The notes below the pieces were generated by a model. The model searched no databases. It was not told the origin of the DNA and saw nothing but the letters and a program-made list of their open reading frames with translations. From Auricularia sp. M13 (lineage: Eukaryota > Basidiomycota > Agaricomycetes > Auriculariales > Auriculariaceae), in the NCBI GenBank assembly GCA_037042915.1, contig CM073200.1, positions 2,414,832 to 2,478,831 of the forward strand: a DNA stretch of 64,000 nt, in the 5' to 3' direction. Below, piece by piece: positions 6,840-27,727 of this stretch. A program made the translations under genes and the position numbers. Each line of letters begins with the position of its first letter. Position 1 is the stretch's first letter.

Positions 6840-8973
6840 GGGAAGGCTGAGTGTAAGTATTCCCCGCTGCGCGGAGGCCGTTGAACGAGTACTAGTCCCA
6901 ATCCTCACAGACTTAATCGCATGCGCTTTTATGCATTCGATGGCCATGGTGTGCTGCCCTGTGCAGATTTCCAACGCAGACCGCCCATTTGAACCACTCC
7001 CAGCACGAGGCTCACGATATTGAGGAAAGGTTTTGACCAGAACTCGAACTCCACGACAAGCCCTGGTGCACGGTGGGCAGTAAGAGTAGTTCCCGGGGAT
7101 GACAGCCCAGTCGCAGACACGGCTACTGAGCAAGCGATCAGTGCGCACGACTGAAATGACCGCGCTGTGAAGCCTGGAGCCACAGTTTCTGGACCCAATC
7201 CTGTCGAATAGCTCAGTCGTGTTGTCTGGCATATCAGTCAGTCAGCCTCTCCCTCGCGAATGAACAACCTTGCACAAGCATTTGCAATAAAAAGCGGCGC
7301 CGCCGGCAGCGGCGTCGTTACACTTTGTACTGATAGTCAACGATAAGCACTTAAGCAAGAAACCCACTCGTGGACGCCAAGTTGGAAACATCACTCCGTC
7401 TCGAGCTTTTTCGCTTCGCCTGCAACAGAGCCTGATGGTGAGCAAGGAAGGTGTGGGAAGCACAGCAAGAGCGTACCATCCGCGGCAGGCTTGGGTTCGT
7501 CAGGCTCCTTCCGCTTTAGCCCGTTGGATTCGCCGTTCGCGGGTGCGAGCAGGCGCGGGTACGACGGCTACAAACGATGAAGGCGGCGTTGGCGTCTTCC
7601 TGAATGCTGTATTTGGGTTCGAGTAGCACCGGGCCCGTCCATAGAGAACGATGATTCGATCGGATTCCATGGATCCAAGAGGCCGCGGCGTAAGCGACAA
7701 ATCTGTGGTGGCAAGTCGAATGGCAGGCATATTGCCTAAATCCGCATAAGACATGCGCTGCTTCTAAAGTGCTTCTAGCCTTTCGTCTGTCCGGAGGCAA
7801 GAGGATCCGTGAACGCTGCTGCATGCGAGTTTATACATCGCGTGCTACGGCCTGCTACAGCAGGCTTATAGACTATTAAGGCGTCATATAAATAATGTAA
7901 AGCGCGTAAGATGCCAATTACTTGATCCTTCGATGAATCCTCGACATAGCGAGAGCGTGAAGCGCGATCTGCGAAGGTCTGAAAGGGAGAGTAGCGGAGA
8001 AAGAACGATTGTAAACCCCGCTACTTGCTCTCTCTCTCCGTCATCCGCGTTGCCGATAGACATGACAAGTGGCGCTGTGGCTCATACGGCGGTCAAAGCA
8101 GGCTGCATGATGCTGTTATGCAAGGACCTACGTGTCTTACTAAGTACGACCGCGGACGCCCACAGCACTTCGACGCGAGCTCGAAGTGCGCTGCCCGTCA
8201 GGGCGCCGCAGGATCCTTATAATCGCCATAACAGAACATCCTTTGAATAGGGAAACTAAAAACAGCTATAGGGCTATTGATACTATACGGATTTCAGGCA
8301 AAGCGGTGAGGTGCAGGCGTGCAGCCTGATGCTGGGAACTATTACGCTTCCGCGCACTCGAATGCAAACCCCAAGCAAATCGAAGATGAAATACCACCTT
8401 CGTACAACAAATTTTATCAGTGTATGGACTTGGACACACTTCCACCAGGGACAGCGCCGGTGCCTGCTTCACTATAGCTCGGTTGTATGATACCTCTGAT
8501 CCCTCCACCATGGATTTCGCCCTTCACCCGGAGAGTTGAGGACTTTCCAGACAGGTCAGTCTTTGCGAAACTATATGATAAGATTTCTAGCTGTTATGAT
8601 AGATGAGATTCGGCTTCGATATGGCTCTATTTCAGCGCATAATCAATGAACTCTGCCTATTCCAAGAAGTAAATATTCCCTTTTTAGCTGCTGTGAAGTG
8701 TAAGTATCATATCAGTCGATGCAAATGCTGTTTGCTAAGTACGACGGAACTGCTGAATCAGGCAGGACAGCCCACGTGCGGCGCCGGCCGGATGTGCCGG
8801 GCGATGAAATGGCCATCTCCGCATCGAGCCTGAGCTCTCTTCACATCGTCCAAGCCCAGGTCGCGTCCTGAACGCGTGGCCGGGTACTACGCTCGCGCAC
8901 AAAGGCTGCCCCTTTGACGATCTAACGCGCGCGACCCCGATCCCGCTCGCTGAGCTTACCCGGGTACCGCACC
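6840..8973. other. 2.1 kb intergenic, possible membrane-protein debris
   Basis: No convincing gene. On the minus strand around 6930-7200 a hydrophobic stretch (FWSKPFLNIVSLVLGVV) could be a scrap of a multi-pass membrane protein, but no flanking exons fit. The rest holds short frames without recognisable domains. The last 150 bp would be the promoter of the Cdc4-like gene; no TATA box is clear. Confidence 0.4.
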
Positions 8974-10989
8974 ATGTCTGAGCAGCTCATCGCAGAGTCT
9001 GGCAGTGGCCACGGCTTCGTACCCCCAGCATCGCCGTCTCATGTCTTTGTATCCCAGCTCTCGTCGTCTGTCGTGGTCTCCGTGCCTTCTCTGCCGTCGC
9101 CCGCGCCGTCCCCGCGACAGTCTGGTGCATTTGAGGCTTTGACGCACTCTGCGCACGACTCTAGCATCGACCTGTTGCTTCATTTTCAAACCCTGCCCCG
9201 TGGAAGAGCGCGGAGCGCGTTCTTACGAGGATTGTTGGATCACTGCGAACGCGACGAGCTGCTTATGCTCTCGACACTGCTTGCACCGCGTCTGAAACGC
9301 GACTTCCTCGGCGAGCTGCCGCCCGAACTCGCCCTGCACGTCCTGTCCTTTGTCGATGACGCGCAGACTCTGGCCCGTGTATCCTGTGTCTCGAAGGCCT
9401 GGCGCCACCTTCTTGGGGACGAGCAGCTGTGGCGCGCAATGGGGCACCGGTACAACTTCAACATCGCCGCCCCGGACCCGGCTCGTTCATTCAGGCGGCA
9501 GTTCAAGACGGCCTTTCAAACTGGTGCGTGCTTCGTACAGAGAAGCGCGCTCCGACATCTGACGCGGCGCAGAACGCAACTGGAGAACCGGCGGGCGCCT
9601 GATCAAGTCGAACCGCACGCCAGACGAAGGCATCGTGACGTCGCTCGCGATGGACGACGACCTGATCGTCATCGGGTTCAACAACCACAACGTCAACCTG
9701 TACGACGCGCACACGGGCGCAAAGCTCGCGACGCTGCTCGGCCACCAGCAGGGCGTCTGGGCCATCTGTCTCATCAGCCGCGGCGGACGCCTGCTCGACC
9801 CGTCCGAGCACGCGCCGCGACCCGTTCCCATCTGGCCACCGGTTCAGCCCCATGTCGTCCTCGCAGAACCGGTGCAGGCGACTGCGCCCGCCCTCGGGCT
9901 CGGTCTGGGCTTCGCTGAGCCCGGCGTGACGCTGCCGGAGGAGTATCCTGAAGGCTTTGTCTGCCCAATGCCGTCGTCTGACAACGCAGAGGCGCTCCGG
10001 AGCGATGTCTGTGGTGCGACGCGCGGGTGGGGGCAGCCTCATGCCATCGTCGTGAGCGGCTCGAGCGACCGCACCGTGCGCGTGTGGAACGCAGCGACCG
10101 GCGAGTGCATGCACATTTTGACCGGACACAGCGCCACCATCCGCTGCATGAAGGCCCTTCAGAATCGTCCGCTAGTCGTCAGCGGGTCGCGAGATAGTAC
10201 GCTGAAGGTCTGGGACATTGAGCGCGGTGTCCTGCTCAGGACCATGGTCGGCCACACGGACAGCGTGCGCTGCCTGGACGTCTTTGCGAATCAGGTCGTG
10301 TCTGGCAGCTACGACACTTCTTTGCGGGTGCGCACGCAGTCCCTCGCATACAGGAGCTGATCTGACAAAACATGTAGCTGTGGGACGCTGACACCGGCCA
10401 GTGTTTACGGACGTTCCTCGGACATACGCAGCCCATATACGCCGTCTCCTACGACGGCACACGCATCGCGTCTGGCGGTCTTGACCAGATCACCCGCGTC
10501 TGGAGTGCAGAACACGGGTAAGTGCTCAGCGCGTGTTCGACGCCGTCCGCTGACAGCAGCAGGTACTGCCACGCGTTGCTGCAGGGACACAACTCGCTCG
10601 TGTGCCGCCTGCAGCTCTCGCCGCGCCGGCTGTGCACGGGCGGCGCGGACGGGCGGCTGCTCGTGTTCGACGTGGCGAGCAACTACAAGCTCGCGCACCG
10701 CCTCGCGCCGCACTCGCTCACGTCGCTCGCCGCGCTGCAGTTCATGGAGCGCGGCTCGTCCGCGGGCTGCCTGACGAACGACCTGCTCGTCAGCGCGGCG
10801 AACGACGGCCGCGTCGTGCTCACCGACCTGCGCACCGGCGCCGAGGTGCGCGAGCTGAGCGAGAAGTGCGACCAGGTGTGGTGCGTGGGCTTCCGGAACG
10901 ACCGCCTGGTCGTCGTCTGCCTGCGCCACCATAAGACCGTCGTCGAGGTGTGGTCGTTCCGGCCGGAGGACGCGGATGGCGAGGAGTAA
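8974..10989 (+). CDS. CDC4: F-box/WD40 ubiquitin-ligase adaptor, Cdc4/FBXW7-like
   Basis: Exons are 8974-9523, 9573-10327, 10378-10517 and 10563-10989, encoding 623 residues. Order: Ser/Pro-rich N-terminus, a D-domain-like dimerisation helix (LLLHFQTLPRGRARSAFL), an F-box (LPPELALHVLSFVDDAQTLA, about residues 112-155), then a WD40 propeller to the C-terminus. Three arginines that in human FBXW7 (R465, R479, R505) grip the phosphodegron appear in matching places: GHSATIRC, VVSGSRDSTL and GHTDSVRC. The product should therefore be the substrate receptor of an SCF E3 ligase, destroying phosphorylated cell-cycle or transcription factors in the nucleus. Unusual: an insertion of about 80 residues (Pro/Ala-rich, then acidic) between the first and second propeller repeats. 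The start is the first ATG before the conserved region. Confidence 0.9.
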
Positions 10990-13171: not shown

Positions 13172-14085
13172 GTGAGCCGGACCATCGCCACCGCATGGCG
13201 ATGCGCGTCTGTCTATTGTGCCTCAAGCCGTCAAGTATCAAGCATATTCTCCCCGTCGTGTGACAGTCAAACCCACGCGTGCTGCAAGCCTCAAGCCTTA
13301 GCCACCTCTTCAAGCCGTCTCCGCCATGATGATCATGATTGTCTTCGTTTTCGTTCGCGCTTCAAGATCAAGTCCTGTACAACACCGGAATACTGGAACC
13401 TGTGAAGCCCGCAATTTGTACTATTCCCCCTGCACTATTGAGCTCTGCTGTACCATGACTCGCCACCGCTGTATCAGACTCCTGTCTCCCTAATTGATTG
13501 TACCCCCTCTGTACCCGCGCTGTCGACCTCAACGATCAAGTTTGCTTTCTGTGTTGTGCTGGACTCTGTTTCTCATCTCTCGATGGACAATACAAATCTA
13601 CCTCAATTCGATGAATCGGGCCTGTCCAAGGTATGGCAGTGCATTCAGCTAGTATGTGAGATGGTAGTTCGCAGTTCGAGCTGGTGTAGTGGGTTTTGTG
13701 GCAATTCCGCGTCCGGCGGTCCGCGCCATTGGACACGAGTCTGACAAGCCGCAGCTGCTGCCTTTCTGCTGTAGCACTGTTGACATCTCTCAGACCACAT
13801 TGAATTATGTTCGCGGGCTCTGCGCCCTTGTTGCCTTGCAGTTTCTGTGCATTGGATTTCGGGGATGCTTTCAACCTCGTCATCCTGTCAGGATTTTAGA
13901 TAAATAATCCATTCGTTAACTGATAGTCATGTGTTGGACTCTATACCTGTAGTGGCAGAGCTAGCTGGCACTGTTCGACTTGTTCAATTGAAGCGACTGA
14001 GCTGTCAACTACTTAGCAGCCGGTGTTATCCGTTCCAATCATCTCTTCACTCTTTCCCCATTCTTTCCCCACATTTTCTGAGCAC
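13172..14085. other. 3' and 5' flanks, no gene seen
   Basis: Pyrimidine-rich downstream sequence of the preceding gene and the promoter region of the zinc-finger gene at 14086. No supported reading frame or RNA. Confidence 0.5.
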
Positions 14086-15495
14086 ATGTCTACAAAACGG
14101 GCTCGCCACGAGCACGAGCACAACGATGAGGCCGTCGAGCACTCGAACGAGTCGGACGCGACGCCCGACGAGCAGGAGCCGGCGCATAAGGCCGCGCGCG
14201 CCGAGCCCGCCGTGAGCCCGCCGCCGCTCATGTGCTACCTGCCGCCGACGTGCTGCCCGCCGCACGGGCGCCCGACGCCGCTGGCGAACACGCGCGAGCT
14301 CGAGGCGCACTATGCGCGCGTGCATGCACACGTGTGCGCCGCGCAGGGCTGCGCGAAGGTCTTCCCCGACGCCCGGTTGCTGGAGCTCGTGAGCTGCTTT
14401 GAGCCTTCTTTGTGAACGGCCAGGCTGACTGTGCGCTCGTTGTAGCATCATACGGAATGCCATGACCCGCTGGCGGCTATGCGGAAGGAACGCGGCGAGA
14501 AAATCGTGAGTTATTGCTTTGACGTTGGGCGTCGCGGTCAAGGCGCAGGGCAACGGCAATGGAACCTCCAGCGTGTCTTGCAGCACAATTGGCTGTCCAG
14601 CTGTTGGAGGTTAACCATTCTGACTTGCAGTGAACGCTGCTGCTCTGTTATAGGCTCTGCTCTGCTCGCCGTTGCTAACGCTCTCCTTGTCCAGTTTCGC
14701 TGTCATGTCGCGACCTGCCCCAAAGTTTGCGCAACCGCAAAGACTCGGAGGCTACACCTCATCGAAGCACATCATTATCCGAAGCAGTATTTCTTTGCCA
14801 TCACCAACCGAGGCATCGGCGACTTGATTGCGCGCTGGGGAGAGAGCGCAAGTCTGCTGCGGCCAGAGTGGAAACCACGGCCGGGCCAGCTGCCTGGCGA
14901 ATCGGATATGGTCGATGGTGCTGAACAGGCCCCGCCGCCGCAACCACAGCCTGCCAAGCAGCAGCAGCAGCAGCGTGCGAAACCGACCGCCCAGCGCGAA
15001 CCGCCGCCGCACCTGGCGGCACGTCAGTCTGCACCGGTGCCATCTTCGTCGACATCAGCGACGCAAATGCGCAAGGACGCGTTCCGGTCTGCCCAGCCGG
15101 CAAGCTCGGACGAGGACGACGCCATGGATCAGGATCCCAGCCCGTCGCGCCGGCGTACAGTGCGCTTTGCGGACGACGACTCGAACGACGAGGAGGACAA
15201 GGACGGCGCGAAGGCGAGTTTGGGCGATGGCCTGGACGCGCTCGCGCAGCAGCTCAGCAACATCTCCTTCGTGCCGCGCTCGGTCCAGTTTGGGCGCGGT
15301 GGCGCGCACCGCGGCTTCGAGCACCGGAGCGCGAGCGCTCCAGCGCCGGACGAAGGTGCCGCCGAGGACGAGGACGGGAAGAAGAAGACGCGGCGCACAA
15401 CGCGCGGCGGGCGTGGGCGGTCGAGGAAGAAGAACCGCAACCGCGCCGAGGCGCAGATGGCGGTGGACGGGGACGGCGCGGCGCAGGATGCATAG
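14086..15495 (+). CDS. C2H2 zinc-finger protein, ZNF511-like
   Basis: Exons are 14086-14388, 14446-14505 and 14695-15495, encoding 387 residues. After an acidic N-terminus the first finger reads CYLPPTCCPP...LEAHYARVH. The second is CAAQGCAKVF...HHTECH, with its histidines supplied across the first intron. The third is FRCHVATCPKVC...HLIEAHHYP. This arrangement matches the ZNF511 family. The C-terminal half is low complexity: Gln/Pro runs, an acidic block (SSDEDDAMDQD), a conserved-looking RRTVRFADDD, and a basic RRTTRGGRGRSRKKNR tail that may bind nucleic acid or act as a nuclear signal. The second intron (189 bp) is unusually long for this window. The role is probably nuclear; targets are unknown. 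Confidence 0.75.
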
Positions 15496-16041
15496 GCGCA
15501 TTCTGAGCCGCATTCTGGAGCGCAACAACGGATCGAACATCTTGTATTCTCGCGGGCACTTGGAGTGATGTATTTCGTAGGCTCATGTTCAGATATTTAG
15601 ACGAGATGAGACGCGGACGCAGGACCCTGCATCTAGGCGGTTTATGCACTGACGTGCTGTTTGGCGCTCGCTTACATTCAGTGGCAGATAGAAGCGGCCA
15701 AACTCGCTGTCAGGCTGGGCTGATAGAGTGCTGACACGGTTGGAACAGGAGGTCGCAGTTCTGAGTGGGTGGGAGCGTTCTGCCCGGGCCCGTTCCGCAA
15801 AGCCATCGCTCCGCATCTCGTTGCCTCTGCCGGGCGCTCGAACCCAGGCAACCACACACTTGACGGGGGGCCAGAGCCCGCTTCGACTGATATGCAGCCT
15901 GATCATTGCAAATGTGAAACCTTAGACCACCACGTTGACGGACCTAAAAATTGAAGACCAGCCGAAGCCAGGCTTGATCTATTTCCACATCGTTCAATCC
16001 TCCGGAATAAGGTGTCACTGCGCCTTGGGATACTTCGGAGG
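15496..16041. other. intergenic spacer
   Basis: About 550 bp between two zinc-finger genes with no supported gene. The last 80 bp lead directly into the ATG at 16042. Confidence 0.5.
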
Positions 16042-18417
16042 ATGTCAGAACCAGCCCAGGCCGCGCCTGAGACCCCTGCGCTGGATGCCCTGCTTGCCGA
16101 GGCTCAGTTGACACTGTCAGTGAGACAAAACTCTATTGCCGGGCGTCTATACTGACCGAGGTTTCACTCATCCGCAGGGCTCCCTCGCCGCCGCCGCCTC
16201 AACATCAGAGAGGGCCTCCGACGTCCTCAGACTCCAGCTACCGATTCCGGCAGAAGCGCAAGGTGTCGTATGACTACGGATACGACGGCGCCGGCGGCGG
16301 CGATGACCAAGAGGATGATGACTGGGCGGCTGCAGTCATGGGCTACGGTCCAGCCGAGATGGACCGCGACGAGCGCGACGACCATTACAAAGGTCCCTCC
16401 AGGCCGGCAAAGCGCCCGAAGACGAACGCGAGCGTCCAGCGCGAACGCGACCCCTCGAAGCCGCTCGGAGGCGACGCCGAGGCGCGTGCCGTCCAGCTGA
16501 GGGCCCACCCGCTCGCCCAGATCGTCGAGCCCGACCGCGTGTTCTGCAGCGCGTGCGAAAAGTGGGTCAAGCTCGGCCAGTACGCATATTACCTGCACCA
16601 CTGGACCCAGCACCTCAGCACCGTGCATGCCCCGGACCGGCAGTAAGCGTGTCATCCTTTCCCCCCTCCTTCGATCCTCCTTTTCATCACGTTCCTTTGT
16701 CAGGCGAAAGAAACCCGGGCCCAAACCAGGCTGGCAGAATGCTCTGAAGTTTACTCCCACCAAGCCGAAACCCGCTGCTCCGGCGGCCTCGACCTCCGCC
16801 TCAGCACCAGTCACGCCGTCCAGGCCACCAGGATACCGGGCGCTGGTCAATGGGAAAGTCGTCGAGCTGCCTCTGCAGCCGACTTCAGCTGAATCATCGT
16901 AAGCAATCGTCCCTCCTTTCAGACGATCTCTCAGGCCGATTTGTTTCTTGTTTCATGTCAGAGCCCGGCTGCGCAACTACAACCCGCAGAGCGCGACCGG
17001 CAAGCGAGCCCCTCTGCGCAACGAACAGCAGCGGCTCGCGGAGCTCGTGGAAGACCCTGACGTCTACGCCGTCGAGATGTTTCGCGTGCGGTGCCGCCGC
17101 TGCATGCGCTGGGTGCCTTTGGGCCATCGCGGGCCATACTACACCGGGCAGTGGTCGAAACACCTCCTCAAGTGCCAGGGCACGGCAAACGGCGTCTTGC
17201 CGCCCGGCGAAGAAGACATGGTTGTGTGCGTCGCCACAGTTTTCGCGTTCACTGTTTGGCACGCCTGTTAATCACTGCCCGCTTCTCGGTCAATCTGCCC
17301 CGTTACGGCCGTCGACGTCAATAGCAAACTGGAGCCGGGCGACGACTCGGCCAACCTGTCCAGTGCCAACGGCGACCATGCGGAGCCCGCCGGAGACGGA
17401 GACTGGGACACGCAGTCTTACAGGCAACTCACCGCGTCGCCCGCCCCCGCCGCCCCTGCGCCCCTGCCGGCCCCAGCATCAATGCCTTCCACGTCGACGG
17501 CGCGCCCACTCCTGACGCACGCACCGCTGCCGACGCGCGCACCGCTGCCGTCGCGCTCGTACCAGTCTTTCCACGGCGTATTACCGCATCTCCTAGTCGA
17601 TGTTCGAAGCATTCCGCGCCCGATCCTGCTCGACGCGGGCGACCAGCAGTCCCCATCGCTCACCCAATCTCCCGCTCCGCAAACCGACTCTGCAATGTCG
17701 GGCGACCCGCCGTCGCTAACAGACACGCCCGAACCGACGCCTCCCATTGACACTGTTCCTCTATCTGCTGCTGAGTGCGTGTATACACGCCACTGCAATC
17801 TTTGCGGCGCTGGATCTGACGAACGCCAACTGCAGTCTGAAGATTCTTAATCCGCCCGACGTATTCAACCGTGCGGAGTCGAGTGCTCGCGAGCGCGAGG
17901 AGGCATTCCGCGACGATCCCCTCGTTGCGGAAGTCGGCGAGTCTCTGTCTCATAGCACTCGATTAGCGTACGCTAATTGCTGCTTTAGAGCCGCGTCGAG
18001 TGAGGTGTACCATGTGCGACACATGGCTGAAATTGGGCGCGGAAAGCGACTACGCGCCGGGTCACTGGCTGGTGCACAGGAAACGCTGCAAGGAGCGCCC
18101 GAACTGGTCAGTCTGCAACTCTATTGCGCGACTTCTTGCTTATTCAATGCACTTCAGGCTGAAGGCTCGAGGCGTCGGCACCAAACCCAACAACCCAATC
18201 AAGGGCAAAGCCCCCAAGGCGTACAACCCTCCTGCGATATATCCTGTTGCCCCGAGGCAAGCGCGGCCCACAAACGGTACACCAGCGCTGGCAGGTCACA
18301 TCATGGTGCCAATACCCAACGGCCTGCCTCGCCCGGTCCTTCTGCCCGGAGGTCCGGGCGTCGTCCATTATCTCCCCAACGGCATGCCCGTCCCCAAGCC
18401 GGTCCTCCTCCCGACCC

Positions 18418-18450
<33 letters not shown>

Positions 18451-19675
18451 AAGGCACACGGACGCTCCGCGCTCTCCCGGCGCAGTCCTACGCGCCCGCG
18501 CCCGCCAAGGCTGAAGACGAATTCGTCTTCCAGACACCCGGCGCGCGCCTGAACGAGCTCGAGCGCCGTGCGCAGTTCGAGCGCGATCCGGACGTGCGCG
18601 AGGTCCACCCCGACGCCGTGATGTGTAACATCTGCGGCAAGTGGATTAAGCTAAGCAACACTTACCCGTATGCCTCTGGAAACTGGAGCGGCCTGAAAGG
18701 ACATAAGATTACCTGCCGCAAGCGCCATGGACTGTATGTTTGCTGCTGCTGCTGTTTCCTTCATGCTTACACAACCACGCGATTCAGGGATGTGCAACAT
18801 CTCATTGCGGCTGGTGCACGCGCGCCGGCTCCCCCACCGCCCACTGGGGAAGGTAGCTCAACTCCTAGCGCGGGTGAGAAGGTGCGAGCGAGCGCACGGA
18901 TCACCAAGAAGTTGCTGGAGGAAGAGGAGTCCCTCCGGCACGACGAGCGTGTTCGCCGCATCGTGGACGGGCGAGCACAGTGCAACGCATGTGGCAAGTG
19001 GTTGAAGATTCCCAACTTCCGCATGCATCTCGCAAATCGCTGTCGGAAAATGCCCATCGAACGGGTGCGTATGCTCGAGGTCCCTGAAACATCCCTGACG
19101 ATCTTCTTTAGGGCGCGAATCGCCCGGATTACGACTCTGAAAGCGAAGCTGATGAGCCAGTCTGGCAGGAGGAAGAAGAACTGTCTGAACTGACCGACGT
19201 CGACTCTGCCTCTGAATCAGACTGGTGGGTGCGCTCACCCACGCCGCCTCCGCCGCGGCCGCTGTCTCCACAACCCGACTATGTCGCTCGCTATGCTATG
19301 TATCTCAACCCTCAGATCGCCGCTATGGCCGCCCCCGGCCAGTTTACTAGGTCCGCGCTCCCCGCAAACAACGCCAGGCTCTCTGCTGCCCAATTCGCGC
19401 CTCACGAAGTTTCGGCGTCGAACGAGGACTTCGACCTGGACGACGTGCGAATGCTTAATGGTCCAGACGGGGAGTCGAGCAGCCCGCATTTGTTGGCTCG
19501 ACCACGTGTGCACTACGCGCCCTCTGGCGATGCGAGCACGCGCCTTTTCCTCACCCAGCCGCCTTACCAGCCTTGTCCCCATCGTCGAGACGAAGACGCA
19601 GACAGCAAACCCGTGGATTATCTGCGCGAGGCCGGTTTACTGGTGCCGCCTCCCCCTCCGCGTGCCTATGTATGA
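16042..19675 (+). CDS. large protein with five CCHC modules (C-x2-C-x2-W...H...C)
   Basis: A ten-exon model encodes about 1,030 residues: 16042-16115, 16178-16642, 16704-16898, 16962-17225, 17325-17774, 17836-~17936, ~17989-18106, 18158-18733, 18788-19064 and 19112-19675. Five times it repeats a zinc-binding-like unit: C-x2-C-x2-W-[VLI]-[KP]-[LI], then a variable loop, often W-x2, and H-x3/4-[CH]. The modules lie at 16545-16628, 17092-17175, 18006-18089, 18624-18716 and 18981-19043. Before several modules sits an acidic or basic helix with a D(P/D)DVxxV-like start (LVEDPDVYAVEMFRVR; FERDPDVREVHPDAVM). Linkers are Pro/Ser/Ala-rich, with an 11-proline run. The exon 6/7 junction is uncertain: a GC donor (GCGAGT) or a weak GT site gives the right phase. 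I do not know this family. DNA or histone binding in the nucleus is an inference from the fingers and disordered linkers. Confidence 0.75.
18420..18450. repeat. (CCG)n microsatellite coding polyproline
   Basis: About ten uninterrupted CGC/CCG triplets inside exon 8 of the five-module gene encode most of an 11-proline run. A length-variable site is likely between strains. Confidence 0.9.
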
Positions 19676-20010
19676 TGCGAGCTCTCTCTCTTTCTTTTTT
19701 GTACTCTGGGGATGGCCTGACACACTCGTTGCCTGTGTCCGGCCATCGAGATATCTTCCTCTATGGCCACGTCTGGTAATGCTCCCCTATACATTGACGG
19801 GGCTGCGAACCTAGCACTGACTCGTCTGGTATATTCAGTCCTCTCTTTCCTACCTGACACGAGCCTTCTTTTGCCTGTCTAATGTCCCCAACTTCGTTCC
19901 CCCTGACTCGGGTTATTCTGATTGTCGCGCCTAGAGTATACAAGTGTATGTGGTGGTAGGCGTGTAATGGTATCTCTATAAGTAACAGGTGTCGTGGCAT
20001 TGCGTAGAAA
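19676..20010. other. convergent 3' spacer
   Basis: 335 bp between the stop of the five-module gene and the end of the minus-strand 7TM-like gene. T-rich stretches suit 3' ends; no gene is seen. Confidence 0.5.
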
Positions 20011-21580
20011 TTACTGTGCGACATATTCATTCTTTGAATCTAAGGGGTCCAGACCGGGAGGGTATCCAGCGTATGGATGCGGTCTAGATTCCGACGCTTC
20101 CCACCGGACGGACGTTCTCACTGGTTGAGCAGCCAGGGAGGAAGGTTCACCAGTCCACCACTTTGAGCCGTACGTTCTTTCCAACGCATCGGTTGTCTCA
20201 TGGGCGTCGTAGTGTCTCGAAGACGCGAGATCGCCCGGTAGCACTGAGCCGCGGCTCATGCCAACGGTGTCGGTCTGCGTATCGTGTTGCCGTCGGCGCA
20301 AGTGCCAGACTTCGAGAACGTCCTGTTTATGGAATCAATGCCGGTGCTGTTCACCTCACAGAGTCGTACGGACCGGAAGCGTGCCAAAGACAAAGAATGC
20401 TGCTAGAGGGACTGGTGCCGCGTTCATTCAGTGCGAGAACAGCACATTTGGGTGTACTTACGGGTTGCTACGTAGAGGCTGACCACCGTATGCAGTGCCG
20501 GGGTATCTGGAAGAGCAAGGCGGCACATACTACCACCGACGGCTTCAGCTTCCTAAAAAGCGCTGATGGTGATTCACTCACCATGCACTAGGTAGTTGAC
20601 GCGGCTGGTAAGCGGCATTCGCGACGTTTCATGTGCAAACTTACATGGCTGTTACTCCTGCGTATGCCGCAAAGATGGTAAAACGCAACACCACCCGCAT
20701 CCACGGCGCAGAGGTAGAACGTGACGACAGTCCCTTGCGCGCGGAGAAAGTGAGAGTGAACATGAAGGCTTCAGCGCAGTGACGGGTTAGCGAAGGCGGC
20801 CGTTTTTACGCTGTGCACACATACAACTCATCCCCAGGCTGGCGAGCAAGAAGACGCCGATGATAATGGGGGTTATCCGGTCGGCCAGGTATGTGCCGCC
20901 TGTTGATCGAAATCCGCAGATAAGGTCTCGCTGCTCTGCTTGAAGAGTCCCGGGGTGCATCAGTTCGATGCCTAAGAGAGTGAGTTCATAGACTACGAAT
21001 GCCAGGGGCGCAGCGCAAGCCATCTGCGTCCCGTGTTAGCAATCGATTGCAAGAGCACACGCAGCGCACCAGGCGTTGTCCGAGAGGACCAAGACCGTTC
21101 CTGAGCTGCTTGTTGCTCAATGGCATGGTTAAGCGAAGCTATGGGCGTCAGGCGGCATAGACCACAGGCTACGACAAGCCACATACGTGAAGAATAAGGC
21201 AGAATGCCGCTATCGATGTCCTGATGTGTGTTCAGAACATCGAATCCAAGGAGGTGTGTCGGTACACACATAATCAGCGAGCCATTGACGAGCGCGGCTT
21301 GCGCGAGGCAGAGCGGGTGTGACTCTATGTCATCGTCTCCTTGCCGTCCTGCGTAGAGCCTGCAGCGTGGGTTCAGATTCCAAGAACGAGACTTCGCCGG
21401 AGGTGCGCACACGATGCAGGTAGCCAGCGAGTAGACCGTGAAGCAGGCAAGAAGCTCCAAGAAGAGCACATGCCGATGCACCCGCTGGGACAAGATACAC
21501 GTCGCGAGCACGACGGGCAGCAGCACCTGGCCGCCCGTAATGGAGAGGACGAAGAACGCGATGGAGGCCGCGTCCAGCAT
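20011..21580 (-). CDS. seven-transmembrane-like membrane protein
   Basis: Several minus-strand exons encode hydrophobic helices typical of fungal 7TM receptor-like proteins. The first (21411-21580) reads MLDAASIAFFVLSITGGQVL then LLACFTVYSLATC. A 51-bp intron (21360-21410) leads to LYAGRQGDDDIESHPLCLAQ, where the Cys plus Ala-Ala-Leu-Val segment is characteristic. Further exons carry AAPLAFVVYELTLLGIEL and ITPIIIGVFLLASLGMS (20790-21020), then GTVVTFYLCAVDAGGVAFYH (~20670-20740). A hydrophilic C-terminal tail (WHLRRRQHDTQTDTVG... to stop at 20011) ends the gene. Not all internal junctions could be fixed, and the true start may lie upstream of 21580. The ligand is unknown. It may be a plasma-membrane sensor, or a partly decayed copy of one. 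Confidence 0.5.
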
Positions 21581-22198
21581 CGCAGCCGCAGTGGTGCGAG
21601 TGGCTCCTAGATGGCAGCCAGAGGGAGGAGGGAGAGCGGCGTGCGGCCCGTCGATGCATCGTCCCGAAACTCATGGCCGGGCAGGGCCATCTGATCCTCT
21701 GGTGCTCACCGGTTCGCACGGTGGCTCATGGCACGAGGCCGACTAGGATAGCAGAAGCTTCCATCAAGCATGCCGTCTGACGCCGTTGCCTAATTTGTAA
21801 TTGGAGATACCGAGCAAGCCAGCATGCGGACGAGACCTGATAATGAAAGACGAGACCCCGATAATGTAAGACAGCCAGAGCGCAGAGTGCAGAGTCCAAG
21901 CCAGCAAGGTCAATTACTTGTGGATTGTACTACAGATCAATAGGCCCCTATGGCCATGCGCTGCTGGGATACGTGATAAATTCAGGTCGCGAGTTCGCCA
22001 CGGGGCATTGCAGCAAAGAGTTCGACCAGAGCATCGTATTAGTACCTTTCCGTCCTTTGTCATAGATAGAGCTCGAGTGTTAGAGCGCGCGAAGCACGTC
22101 GAGTGCCAGATCAAGTGGTGATTACCGTTTGGGTAAGACCAGCAAATCAGTCGGACTTCCAAGCCGCGTCGAGCTTCCGCTTGCCTCTCAAGGGCACC
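21581..22198. other. divergent promoter region
   Basis: Spacer between the minus-strand 7TM-like gene and the plus-strand MYND gene. It probably holds both promoters and possibly an upstream exon of the 7TM gene. No other gene is supported. Confidence 0.45.
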
Positions 22199-24309
22199 AT
22201 GTTTTCAGGATTCGACAGGCCCGCTCCGCGCCCTTTACCATACGGCGGCAGGCCAAAGTATGTGAAACTTGCGCCAGGCGACAAGGGCTATTACCTAGAC
22301 CCGGTTTTCTTCGAAGGTGCGATGTATCCGCGCCACAGGCTTCCTGTCAGTTATCGCTGACCCCAGTTCACGCCTAAAGACCCTCGCACGTTCCAAGGAA
22401 AGCCAGGACCAAAAGGGCACATTGTTCAATGGGGGCTTACACCCGTGAGTCTCTCGAACGCGTGTTCGTGGGATGTCGACACATTTTATCCCAGGTAGAC
22501 AACGAAAACCAGCCAGGTACGCGCCGTCACGACTCTCTAGAGGAACAAAAAATATATCTATCTTCCAGATGTGGATATCATGACATTGATGACGCGAAAG
22601 GTTCGCAGTCTGCAAGCATGTGGCGTCTAACTGGACGTCCGTTAGAGCATCTCGCAATTCGAGTACATGAGAAGCGGGGGAGTCAATCTTCCAACTCCAG
22701 AGGTGCAATTTGTGGATGTTCTCAAGGAACGGAAAGTGAGTTTCAGCATTCATTATAATGAAAATTTCCTCATTGCGATCCCAAGATGAAAAAGCTCGAT
22801 GCGCTCGACCTTCACGAGCGGGACAAACACGACGTGGTCCTGCGCGTCACACTACTGTCTGTTTCTTTATTGTCTGGTCAATATGCATCCTGATTTATAG
22901 CAGCAATGTCACCAAGAACTGCGAATATCGCATATGGCGGCGGTTCCGAGTTTCCGCGGGCATCAAGCTCAGCGTATTCCAAGACAAAGTTCTCACCCCG
23001 ATCATGGGCTGGTAAGATAGCAATCCTTTCATTCTCATTTTATTAAACAGCCCATAGGACGCGAAATTTGCATGCGTACGTGTTCACGGACTACAAGGAC
23101 GGGGCGCTGTTTGGACCGGAGGTGAAGACCTGCCGCAGCTTTAATCGGTCGGTTTTGCTGACCAGTACTTATTCGCCAACCCCAGGGAATGTCATCCGTA
23201 GATCACTTGACGTGGCTCTCGGCCGTGCGCTCAGCTATCTTGTGCTAGAGCGGTGGCTCATATGGCAATTCTCAGATTGGCCACGGCTATATAAGCGACG
23301 ATAGGTATGCATTTGCAGCCGTATGGTCTTGATTTCGCTGACTCTCATCGTGAGATATACCTTAGCCCATATGTTCGAAAAGGAGCGCGACGTATTTGGT
23401 TACCTGTATGATTTCGGAGACAAGTGGTTCCACGAAATCGAGGTGCGCCCTTGCAACTAGCGCTGGCAAGATATTGCCTCTTATGTTCATTAGGTAGAGA
23501 AAATCATTCCCCTCGAAGACTCGACGGGTCGCGTCGAGATCCTCGAGGGAAAGGGCATGTGCCCCGGCGGTACGTGTGCACGACGATTCCCTGGTCGCCG
23601 ACGTTTGGCCGTTGACAATCCGTCAAGAAAACATGAAAGGCAGTTGGTGCTACCAGGACTTCATGGAAGCATACGACAAGGCGGGCACAGCGGTCAGGTT
23701 CGGAGATCTTACCCGCCCTTTCTTGCGTCGTCTCATCCCCCAAAACACCAGATTCCAGAAGAGTCTAGAAATCCTGAATCAAGCGAACTATCACGACTTC
23801 GGGAAACCGCTCGCGAAGTTCAATCCAGATGTATTCGACATGGAATATGCGACGCGCTGCCTCAAGGAGGCCCTGGCAAGTCACAACTCTGTCCGTCAGG
23901 GCGCCAAAGGTTTCAAAATGCCAATCTCGGGCACGCCGGATGAAATCGACGATATGGACAGCATCCGCCTGAAGAAAGGGCAGAGTTTCAAGCGCACGAG
24001 TTCGGACACCTACGGCTACTGGCAGGAAGCCCAAACAAGCAAGAAGGACAAGAAACGGCAGACTATCTGTGCCGAGTGCGGCAAGCCAGGCGACGATTTG
24101 AAGGCGTGCGGTGCTTGTCGTCAGATCTGGTCAGCTCGCGAACGTGCGATGCCCTGCTGCGGATCGGCTGACAAAGTTTCAGGTATTGCTCGGTCGATCA
24201 CCAGAGAGTCAGTCCTATCGCTCGTATTCATCCAAAGCTGACGTGTACGCAGGCCCACTGGAAGGAAATGCACAAACGACAGTGTAGCAAGCAGTTCTCT
24301 GCGAAATGA
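22199..24309 (+). CDS. pRiA4b ORF-3-like domain protein with C-terminal MYND finger
   Basis: A gene of at least thirteen exons. N-terminal exons (22199-22316, ~22380-22444, 22495-22516, 22569-22600, 22646-22735, 22786-22856, 22901-23011, 23058-23121) lead into a pRiA4b-ORF3/MM3350-like fold: YRIWRRFRVSAGIKLSVFQD and MGWTRNLHAYVF. The later part reads VFGYLYDFGDKWFHEIEVEK and GKGMCPG. Exon limits between 23122 and about 23365 are unresolved. Exon 23628-24129 carries CAECGKPGDD and CGACRQI. Exons 24183-24207 and 24253-24309 finish a MYND zinc finger (YCSVDHQRAHWKEMHKRQC). The sixth ligand, usually Cys in MYND, is His here (VDHQ). MYND fingers mediate protein contacts; the pRiA4b-like domain has no settled biochemical role. 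Probably a cytoplasmic or nuclear adaptor. Confidence 0.75.
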
Positions 24310-26539: not shown

Positions 26540-26953
26540 TTTCATGTTACGTGTTGTAGTTTCTTCTTCTCATTGACACGATCGTATATAACAGATGTAA
26601 TTCAGCAGGTGGTGTAAAATTACCTTTTTTTCAATTTCCTTGACATCTGAGCTGAGAATTCAGATTTTTGTGACACTTGAACGATGTAAGCCGCGCTATT
26701 ATACATGTGTGCCATGGATAGTTTCTTGATTTTACGGGCATTTGTTCTGAGCTGTCTGAGTCCGAAATAGTGGTTCGACGCGGATCATCGTGCCATGATC
26801 GTCGGCGGTCTTTTTGGGTTTTGCCTCAGCGCGTCGACGACACGTAGACTGCAACATACTCCTTCAGCGGTAGATTCAACTGGAATCTTCTAGTGTCTGC
26901 TCCTCGTCTACATACGAAACCGCGACGCCTCTCCGTGCATTTCGCCGCGCAGA
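26540..26953. other. intergenic spacer
   Basis: About 410 bp between the peroxygenase stop and the first membrane cyclase ATG, A/T-rich in its first half. No gene is seen. Confidence 0.5.
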
Positions 26954-27727
26954 ATGGGCTCAGCAGACGTTCCCCCGCCGCACGTTCCCGCGCACGTCGT
27001 ACCAGTCTCCAATATCCTGCTACAAGCCGGCGGAGCTTTATGGACCCTCTGCTATATCTTGCTCATACGCGCTTCCAATCGCACCAAGTCCTACGGAATG
27101 CCGCTCTTTGCGCTCGCTCTCAACTTCGGCTGGGAAGTTGTCTACGGTCTTTTCATTGCGGAAGAACCTCTCGAGCGCACCGGCTTCCAAGTCTGGCTAT
27201 TGGTCGACGCCGGCCTCGTTTATGGGCTGTTGAAATACGGTCGCGCAGAATGGTCGCATGCGCCCATCGTTAGCCGCAACCTCGGCCTGATCTTCACTGT
27301 ACTTTGCCTGGGCAGCGTACTCGGCCATTGGACCTTTGCGCGCTGGGCCTTCGATAGCGGCCTTGGGATGCATCGAGGCAAGACATACGCTGGCCAACCA
27401 AGCGCCGACACGACCGAAATGGGATTCTGGAGCGCGGCGTTGTGCCAGGTCTATCTCTCCGGCGCAAGCGTGGCGCAGCTGCTCGTCCGCGGTCACACGC
27501 GTGGAGTGAGCTGGGGCGTATGGGCGACGCGAACGCTGGGCTCGATTCTTGGATTCAACGTTTACTACGGCTTTCGGTGGTGGTACTGGCCCGAGGGACA
27601 CGATTACGTTGTGACGCCTTTCGGGCTCTTCCTCGCGGGCGCGGGTCTGTTTGCGGATCTCATATATCCAATCGTCTTTTATAGTGTCAAGGCACAAGAA
27701 CCTGCAGTTCGGCAACGCAAGGAATAG
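26954..27727 (+). CDS. PaxB/Pyr4-type membrane terpene cyclase-like protein, copy 1
   Basis: An intronless 257-residue integral-membrane protein with about seven helices, in the family of PaxB, AtmB, Pyr4 and AusL that cyclise epoxidised prenyl chains in indole-diterpene and meroterpenoid pathways. It starts MGSADVPPPHVPAHVVPVSN and keeps the acidic residues thought to protonate the epoxide: Glu in NFGWEVVYG, and Asp in FRWWYWPEGHDYV. Between these lies the family stretch GHWTFARWAFDSGLG-RGKTYAG. Unlike copies 2 and 3 it has no intron after DTTEMG and lacks their C-terminal LPDGRKV tail. Substrate cannot be read from sequence; many basidiomycete members are uncharacterised. It lies head-on to copies 2 and 3 in the same 8-kb region. 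Confidence 0.85.
   Translation: MGSADVPPPHVPAHVVPVSNILLQAGGALWTLCYILLIRASNRTKSYGMPLFALALNFGWEVVYGLFIAEEPLERTGFQVWLLVDAGLVYGLLKYGRAEWSHAPIVSRNLGLIFTVLCLGSVLGHWTFARWAFDSGLGMHRGKTYAGQPSADTTEMGFWSAALCQVYLSGASVAQLLVRGHTRGVSWGVWATRTLGSILGFNVYYGFRWWYWPEGHDYVVTPFGLFLAGAGLFADLIYPIVFYSVKAQEPAVRQRKE

Follow-up and report, generated by a model that had tools for sequence, protein, structure and literature searches.

Five modules in one predicted protein

The window analysed here is a stretch of 64,000 nucleotides from Auricularia sp. M13, in which a pattern of two cysteines, a tryptophan and a final His-Cys or His-His pair recurs five times on the + strand. This raises three questions: do the five copies belong to one protein, are they a known kind of zinc finger, and what might such a protein do? 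The original prediction placed five modules at 16545-19043 in one protein of ten exons. The first Cys codon lies at 16545-16547 and the last at 19041-19043, and the modules occupy successive open exon pieces. All five can be read in a single frame of one spliced model of 1027 aa, predicted from the sequence, with ten exons, a predicted start ATG at 16042, a stop at 19673-19675 and nine introns between. The features of the locus are as follows.

16042..19675, + strand: predicted gene model; exons 16042-16115, 16178-16642, 16704-16898, 16962-17225, 17325-17774, 17836-17936, 17989-18106, 18158-18733, 18788-19064 and 19112-19675
16407..16424, + strand: NLS-like AKRPKT preceding module 1 (model residues 102-107)
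16476..16640, + strand: module 1, CCHH type with N-terminal extension, C-x2-C-x18-H-x4-H
17023..17190, + strand: module 2, long CCHC type
17836..18106 (exons 6-7 including the intron), + strand: module 3, long CCHC type; the extension ends exon 6 and the finger is in exon 7
18555..18731, + strand: module 4, long CCHC type; AlphaFold mean pLDDT 80.2
18912..19058, + strand: module 5, short CCHC type; AlphaFold mean pLDDT 81.9
19112..19672, + strand: C-terminal tail; net charge of the first 40 residues -14; motifs YxxxYxxYLxP, TRLFL and LxxAGL

Since 80 alternative gene models retained all five modules, the details of the predicted structure are provisional; the least certain introns are 4 and 6, and the donor of intron 1 is weak. 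The short introns, together with a Pyr4-like terpene cyclase elsewhere in the window, point to a fungal host. Intron 6 (17937-17988) is a GC-AG intron in our model. A GT donor instead leaves module 3 two residues short in its extension; the GC-AG intron yields LVAEVEPRRVRC in module 3, which is how the modules of other genes are spaced, and we infer it because this family spacing is restored.

The motif had been described accurately: in every window module a Trp stands two residues past the second Cys and is followed by [VLI][KP][LI]. From 5' to 3' the order is H-type, long, long, long, short. Modules 2 and 3 are spaced C-x2-C-x19-H-x3-C and module 4 C-x2-C-x22-H-x3-C. Module 5, C-x2-C-x11-H-x4-C, is a distinct short type that the earlier description lacked, as it did a conserved extension of about 20 residues N-terminal to the CxxC (roughly R..eL..DP.V...V). 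The linkers, announced as Pro/Ser-rich, are indeed rich in Pro (14-27%), but Ser varies from 1 to 11%.

A module family across the genome

We searched the 52.1-Mb genome (14 contigs) with three blended and one natural module peptide, and with profile passes. At least 25 distinct modules were found on seven contigs: C8, which holds the window, C9, C7, C10, C2 (two places), C6 and C4. Module counts are lower bounds because only the best candidates were scored. The modules thus form a multi-gene family within this genome. With one 52-aa query, the whole-genome search reached C9 at E 4e-8, C7 at 1e-7, C10 at 5.5e-5 and C2 at 6e-4. A profile built from the five window modules matched 16 of the 20 other distinct modules at E<0.01, nearly all loci in this test having been pre-selected for similarity and eight coming from a pattern search. 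The four weaker modules scored E 0.075, 0.3, 0.084 and 0.73, the last two being the weakest accepted members (C10a and C4), which stand at about 2e-4 with an iterated profile. There were 53 forward matches, overlapping cuts of the window gene included, and none among 2998 reversed peptides (best E 0.97). A search for viral or prokaryote relatives with one C7 peptide found none.

Invariance of all four ligands had been named as a sign of a stand-alone family. The first three are invariant, both Cys and the His being present in 25/25 modules, but the fourth varies, with Cys in 22 modules and His in the other 3. The Trp after the CxxC is kept in 24/25 modules and a second Trp in 22/25. By eye, the modules fall into a long type with Cys (n=10), a long type with H-x4-H (n=3) and a short type (n=12). 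The H-x4-H type comprises window module 1 and single modules on C7 and C9; these cluster in the module tree with support 99/96, against 56/44 for the short type, in a tree that leaves 17 of its 22 inner branches open.

The types are combined in various orders. On C10, short and long modules alternate three times, 5' to 3', over about 4.5 kb, an array that may represent two genes. On C9 the order is long, short, long, short, short, long, and a single-module gene adjoins. A paralogous pair on C7 and C9 gives dN 0.115, dS 0.446 and dN/dS of about 0.26 over 168 bases. On C6, a version of the short module lies inside a repeat whose copies span at least 1.7-3 kb, are 96-99% identical and occur at six places between 4.125 and 4.313 Mb, near one end. 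Pieces of about 300 bases recur within several copies of this repeat.

The position of introns also differs between types. A strong splice donor follows 20 of the 25 modules; the other five were left out of the phase count. The first strong donor is in phase 2 after 9/11 long modules and in phase 0 after 9/9 short ones, a difference (Fisher P 3e-4) to be taken as a guide only, since the modules of one genome are related and donors were counted by our own score, whether or not an acceptor followed. GTGCGT occurs nine bases past the fourth-ligand codon in six short modules; both long exceptions have a phase-2 GTGCGT slightly further downstream. These positions are consistent with multiplication of the modules by exon duplication, in which the long and short types would carry different flanking intron phases.

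Comparison with catalogued zinc fingers

No Pfam family reached its cut-off in seven exon pieces, in the spliced model or in any of the 25 modules, in keeping with the claim that no named family has this architecture. The best E, 0.0078, was that of module 5 with zf_C2H2_13 (PF18508), at 16.2 bits for a cut-off of 26.5. The curated Pfam C2H2 cut-offs were likewise not reached: zf-C2H2_4 scored in 1/25 modules, with 13.9 versus 27 bits. The classical C2H2 pattern is C-x2,4-C-x12-H-x3,4,5-H (PMC12295980); the window modules have x11 or x18-x22 instead of x12, and the last ligand is His in 3/25 modules only. Further departures from classical fingers are the Cys at the fourth ligand in 22/25 modules, the Trp past the CxxC, the N-terminal helix-strand extension and, in the long window modules, 7-11 extra loop residues.

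With BED fingers (PF02892) the modules share ligand order and general size. All 25 are below the zf-BED cut-off, two scoring at all (best 15.5 versus 20.6 bits), and of the genome's 12 listed zf-BED matches none falls at a module. BED fingers have N-terminal aromatic residues, which are not conserved here; membership was rejected.

Among solved structures, the sole sequence match is to the MORC3 CW finger (PF07496; 4qq4) and covers its first half, about 25 residues, at E 5e-4 with the 25-module profile and E 0.029 with the five-module profile. The likeness consists of V-x-C-x2-C-x-K-W-x-K-L and a later Trp, and the CW first-half pattern C-x2-C-x-K-W-x-K-L is present in modules. The zf-CW score is still below the cut-off in all 25 (4/25 score, best 14.6 versus 27.5 bits), and a genome search with zf-CW matched none of the module loci. 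CW fingers have four Cys ligands, whereas the third ligand is His in 25/25 modules and the second half of the module is predicted to place His and Cys on a helix. We thus rejected zf-CW membership too.

Predicted fold

Modules 4 and 5 were modelled with AlphaFold from alignments of the five window modules and without zinc; both models have the same order of elements: helix, strand, hairpin, helix. In the module 4 model the CxxC lies on strands and helix 47-64 bears the His and Cys (residues 56 and 60 in our count). Neither model had a Foldseek match at E<=0.001, so that the fold assignment rests on the order of elements and the places of the ligands. Among the 50 non-significant matches listed, most for module 4 were ribosomal proteins; for module 5, Tramtrack (2drp, rmsd 1.7, 34 columns, E 2.9) and other C2H2-type fingers appear. 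The modules are predicted to be C2H2-like beta-beta-alpha fingers, with both Cys on the hairpin and the His and second ligand on the C-terminal helix; in most, the third residue ahead of the His is also large and hydrophobic (W-x2-H), as in classical C2H2 and C2HC fingers. The statement that the pattern is neither C2H2 nor BED holds for the canonical patterns, although the predicted fold is C2H2-like.

Charge, possible nuclear localization and C-terminal tail

The fingers are basic, with a mean charge of +3.96 and a positive value in 24/25 modules. Those of the window gene carry +1, +7, +3, +6 and +7 (35-residue cuts) versus a mean of -0.5 (SD 3.8) elsewhere in the protein (33-residue cuts), where 10% of the cuts reach +4 or more. 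The NLS-like stretch before module 1 agrees with the nuclear binder originally proposed and suggests a nuclear location; basic stretches also occur upstream of single-module genes (PPKRPR on C9, RKRAR on C7).

Evidence for a common tail in the window gene and a family gene on C2 (4.786 Mb) is mixed. The three tail motifs occur in the same order in window 19280-19672 (+) and in C2:4785449-4785817. A chain of ungapped pieces between the two tails has a score reached by 4/400 shuffles, but the gapped alignment score was matched by 88/500 shuffles and that of the C-terminal part by 84/1000, and in searches of the genome neither tail retrieved the other.

Possible function

Our best explanation, which we hold with about even confidence, is that the modules represent a new, C2HC version of the classical finger and that the protein is a nuclear, multivalent regulator that probably binds DNA and carries an acidic tail. 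In each module, 50-60 residues long, an N-terminal helix and strand would be followed by a beta-hairpin and then by a C-terminal helix. The putative ligands are Cys-Cys-His-Cys (or His); their conservation suggests that zinc is held by the two hairpin Cys and the His and Cys/His of the helix. DNA would most likely be met by the basic hairpin-helix face. Five such fingers on flexible Pro-rich linkers could bind several sites or spread along chromatin, and the acidic tail might recruit the transcription machinery. More doubtful is a wider reading in which the modules make up a separate zinc-finger class of this fungal lineage, a 50-60-residue unit in long and short forms, variously ordered and exon-duplicated, from which a multi-part DNA or chromatin reader would be built.

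Several observations count against DNA binding. Fingers of classical fold and C2HC type can bind proteins instead, the FOG-type finger binding a GATA factor or another protein. The window protein could accordingly be an interaction array whose FOG-like fingers bind transcription or RNA factors, as a scaffold or corepressor. The long modules have a conserved W-x-G-x2-G-H-[KR], shared by the six long modules on C9 and C10 and by window module 4, which could be a peptide-binding face; moreover the short type is near the FOG C2HC spacing, and ARS2, spliceosome chains and RNF125 are among the non-significant shape matches listed for module 5. But the fingers are basic, and DNA-binding Tramtrack fingers are among equally non-significant matches, so we consider this second-ranked reading unlikely. 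Another is that, by sequence, the PDB entry matched best is a histone reader. If the modules were CW-like readers of histone tails, the Trp past the CxxC would help to form a methyl-lysine cage. In MORC3 the CW domain binds H3K4me3 through an aromatic cage (PMC5811534), and W419A is described as its ligand-binding mutant (PMC8516933). The MORC3 match ends ahead of the third ligand, and the Trp ahead of V-x-C in MORC3 is R in 10/25 modules and W in none. The predicted helix of the modules bears His and Cys in place of the two Cys of CW. Together with the zf-CW scores given above, this makes a histone reader, ranked third, improbable.

Least probable of all is a domesticated BED-like transposase finger brought by a mobile element. 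The ligand order CxxC...H-x3-5-[HC] is BED-like, two modules have the weak zf-BED scores already mentioned, and one version of the short module sits in the six-place C6 repeat; yet no module passes the BED cut-off, and no transposase family appeared at E<=10 in the seven exon pieces or the spliced model. A transposon origin of the window gene was also rejected, inverted repeats within 14000-22000 having arms of at most 27 nt. The DNA-binding regulator is ranked first.

One survey, covering the C2H2 genes of 30 Basidiomycota, used PF00096 for its search and, as it describes, discarded sequences lacking C-x2,4-C-x12-H-x3-5-H (PMC12295980). Because such inventories demand a second His, a finger family with Cys as fourth ligand would be left out; candidate regulators may be overlooked when a multi-finger family of this kind is missing from the lists. 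The module boundaries and the intron rule given here are sufficient for building a search profile. Fungal transcription factors are treated in other papers (PMC5415576, PMC3998117); in the literature searched with general terms we found no name for the module, and one may exist elsewhere.

Other features of the window

At 24226-24297 (+), CTQAHWKEMHKRQC, a weak match to the module profile, resembles the end of a MYND finger. An F-box-like protein is encoded at 8926-9915 (+; E 7e-13). At 26894-27724 (+) lies a Pyr4-like transmembrane terpene cyclase (PF25129, E 2.8e-59), possibly a gene of a terpenoid pathway.
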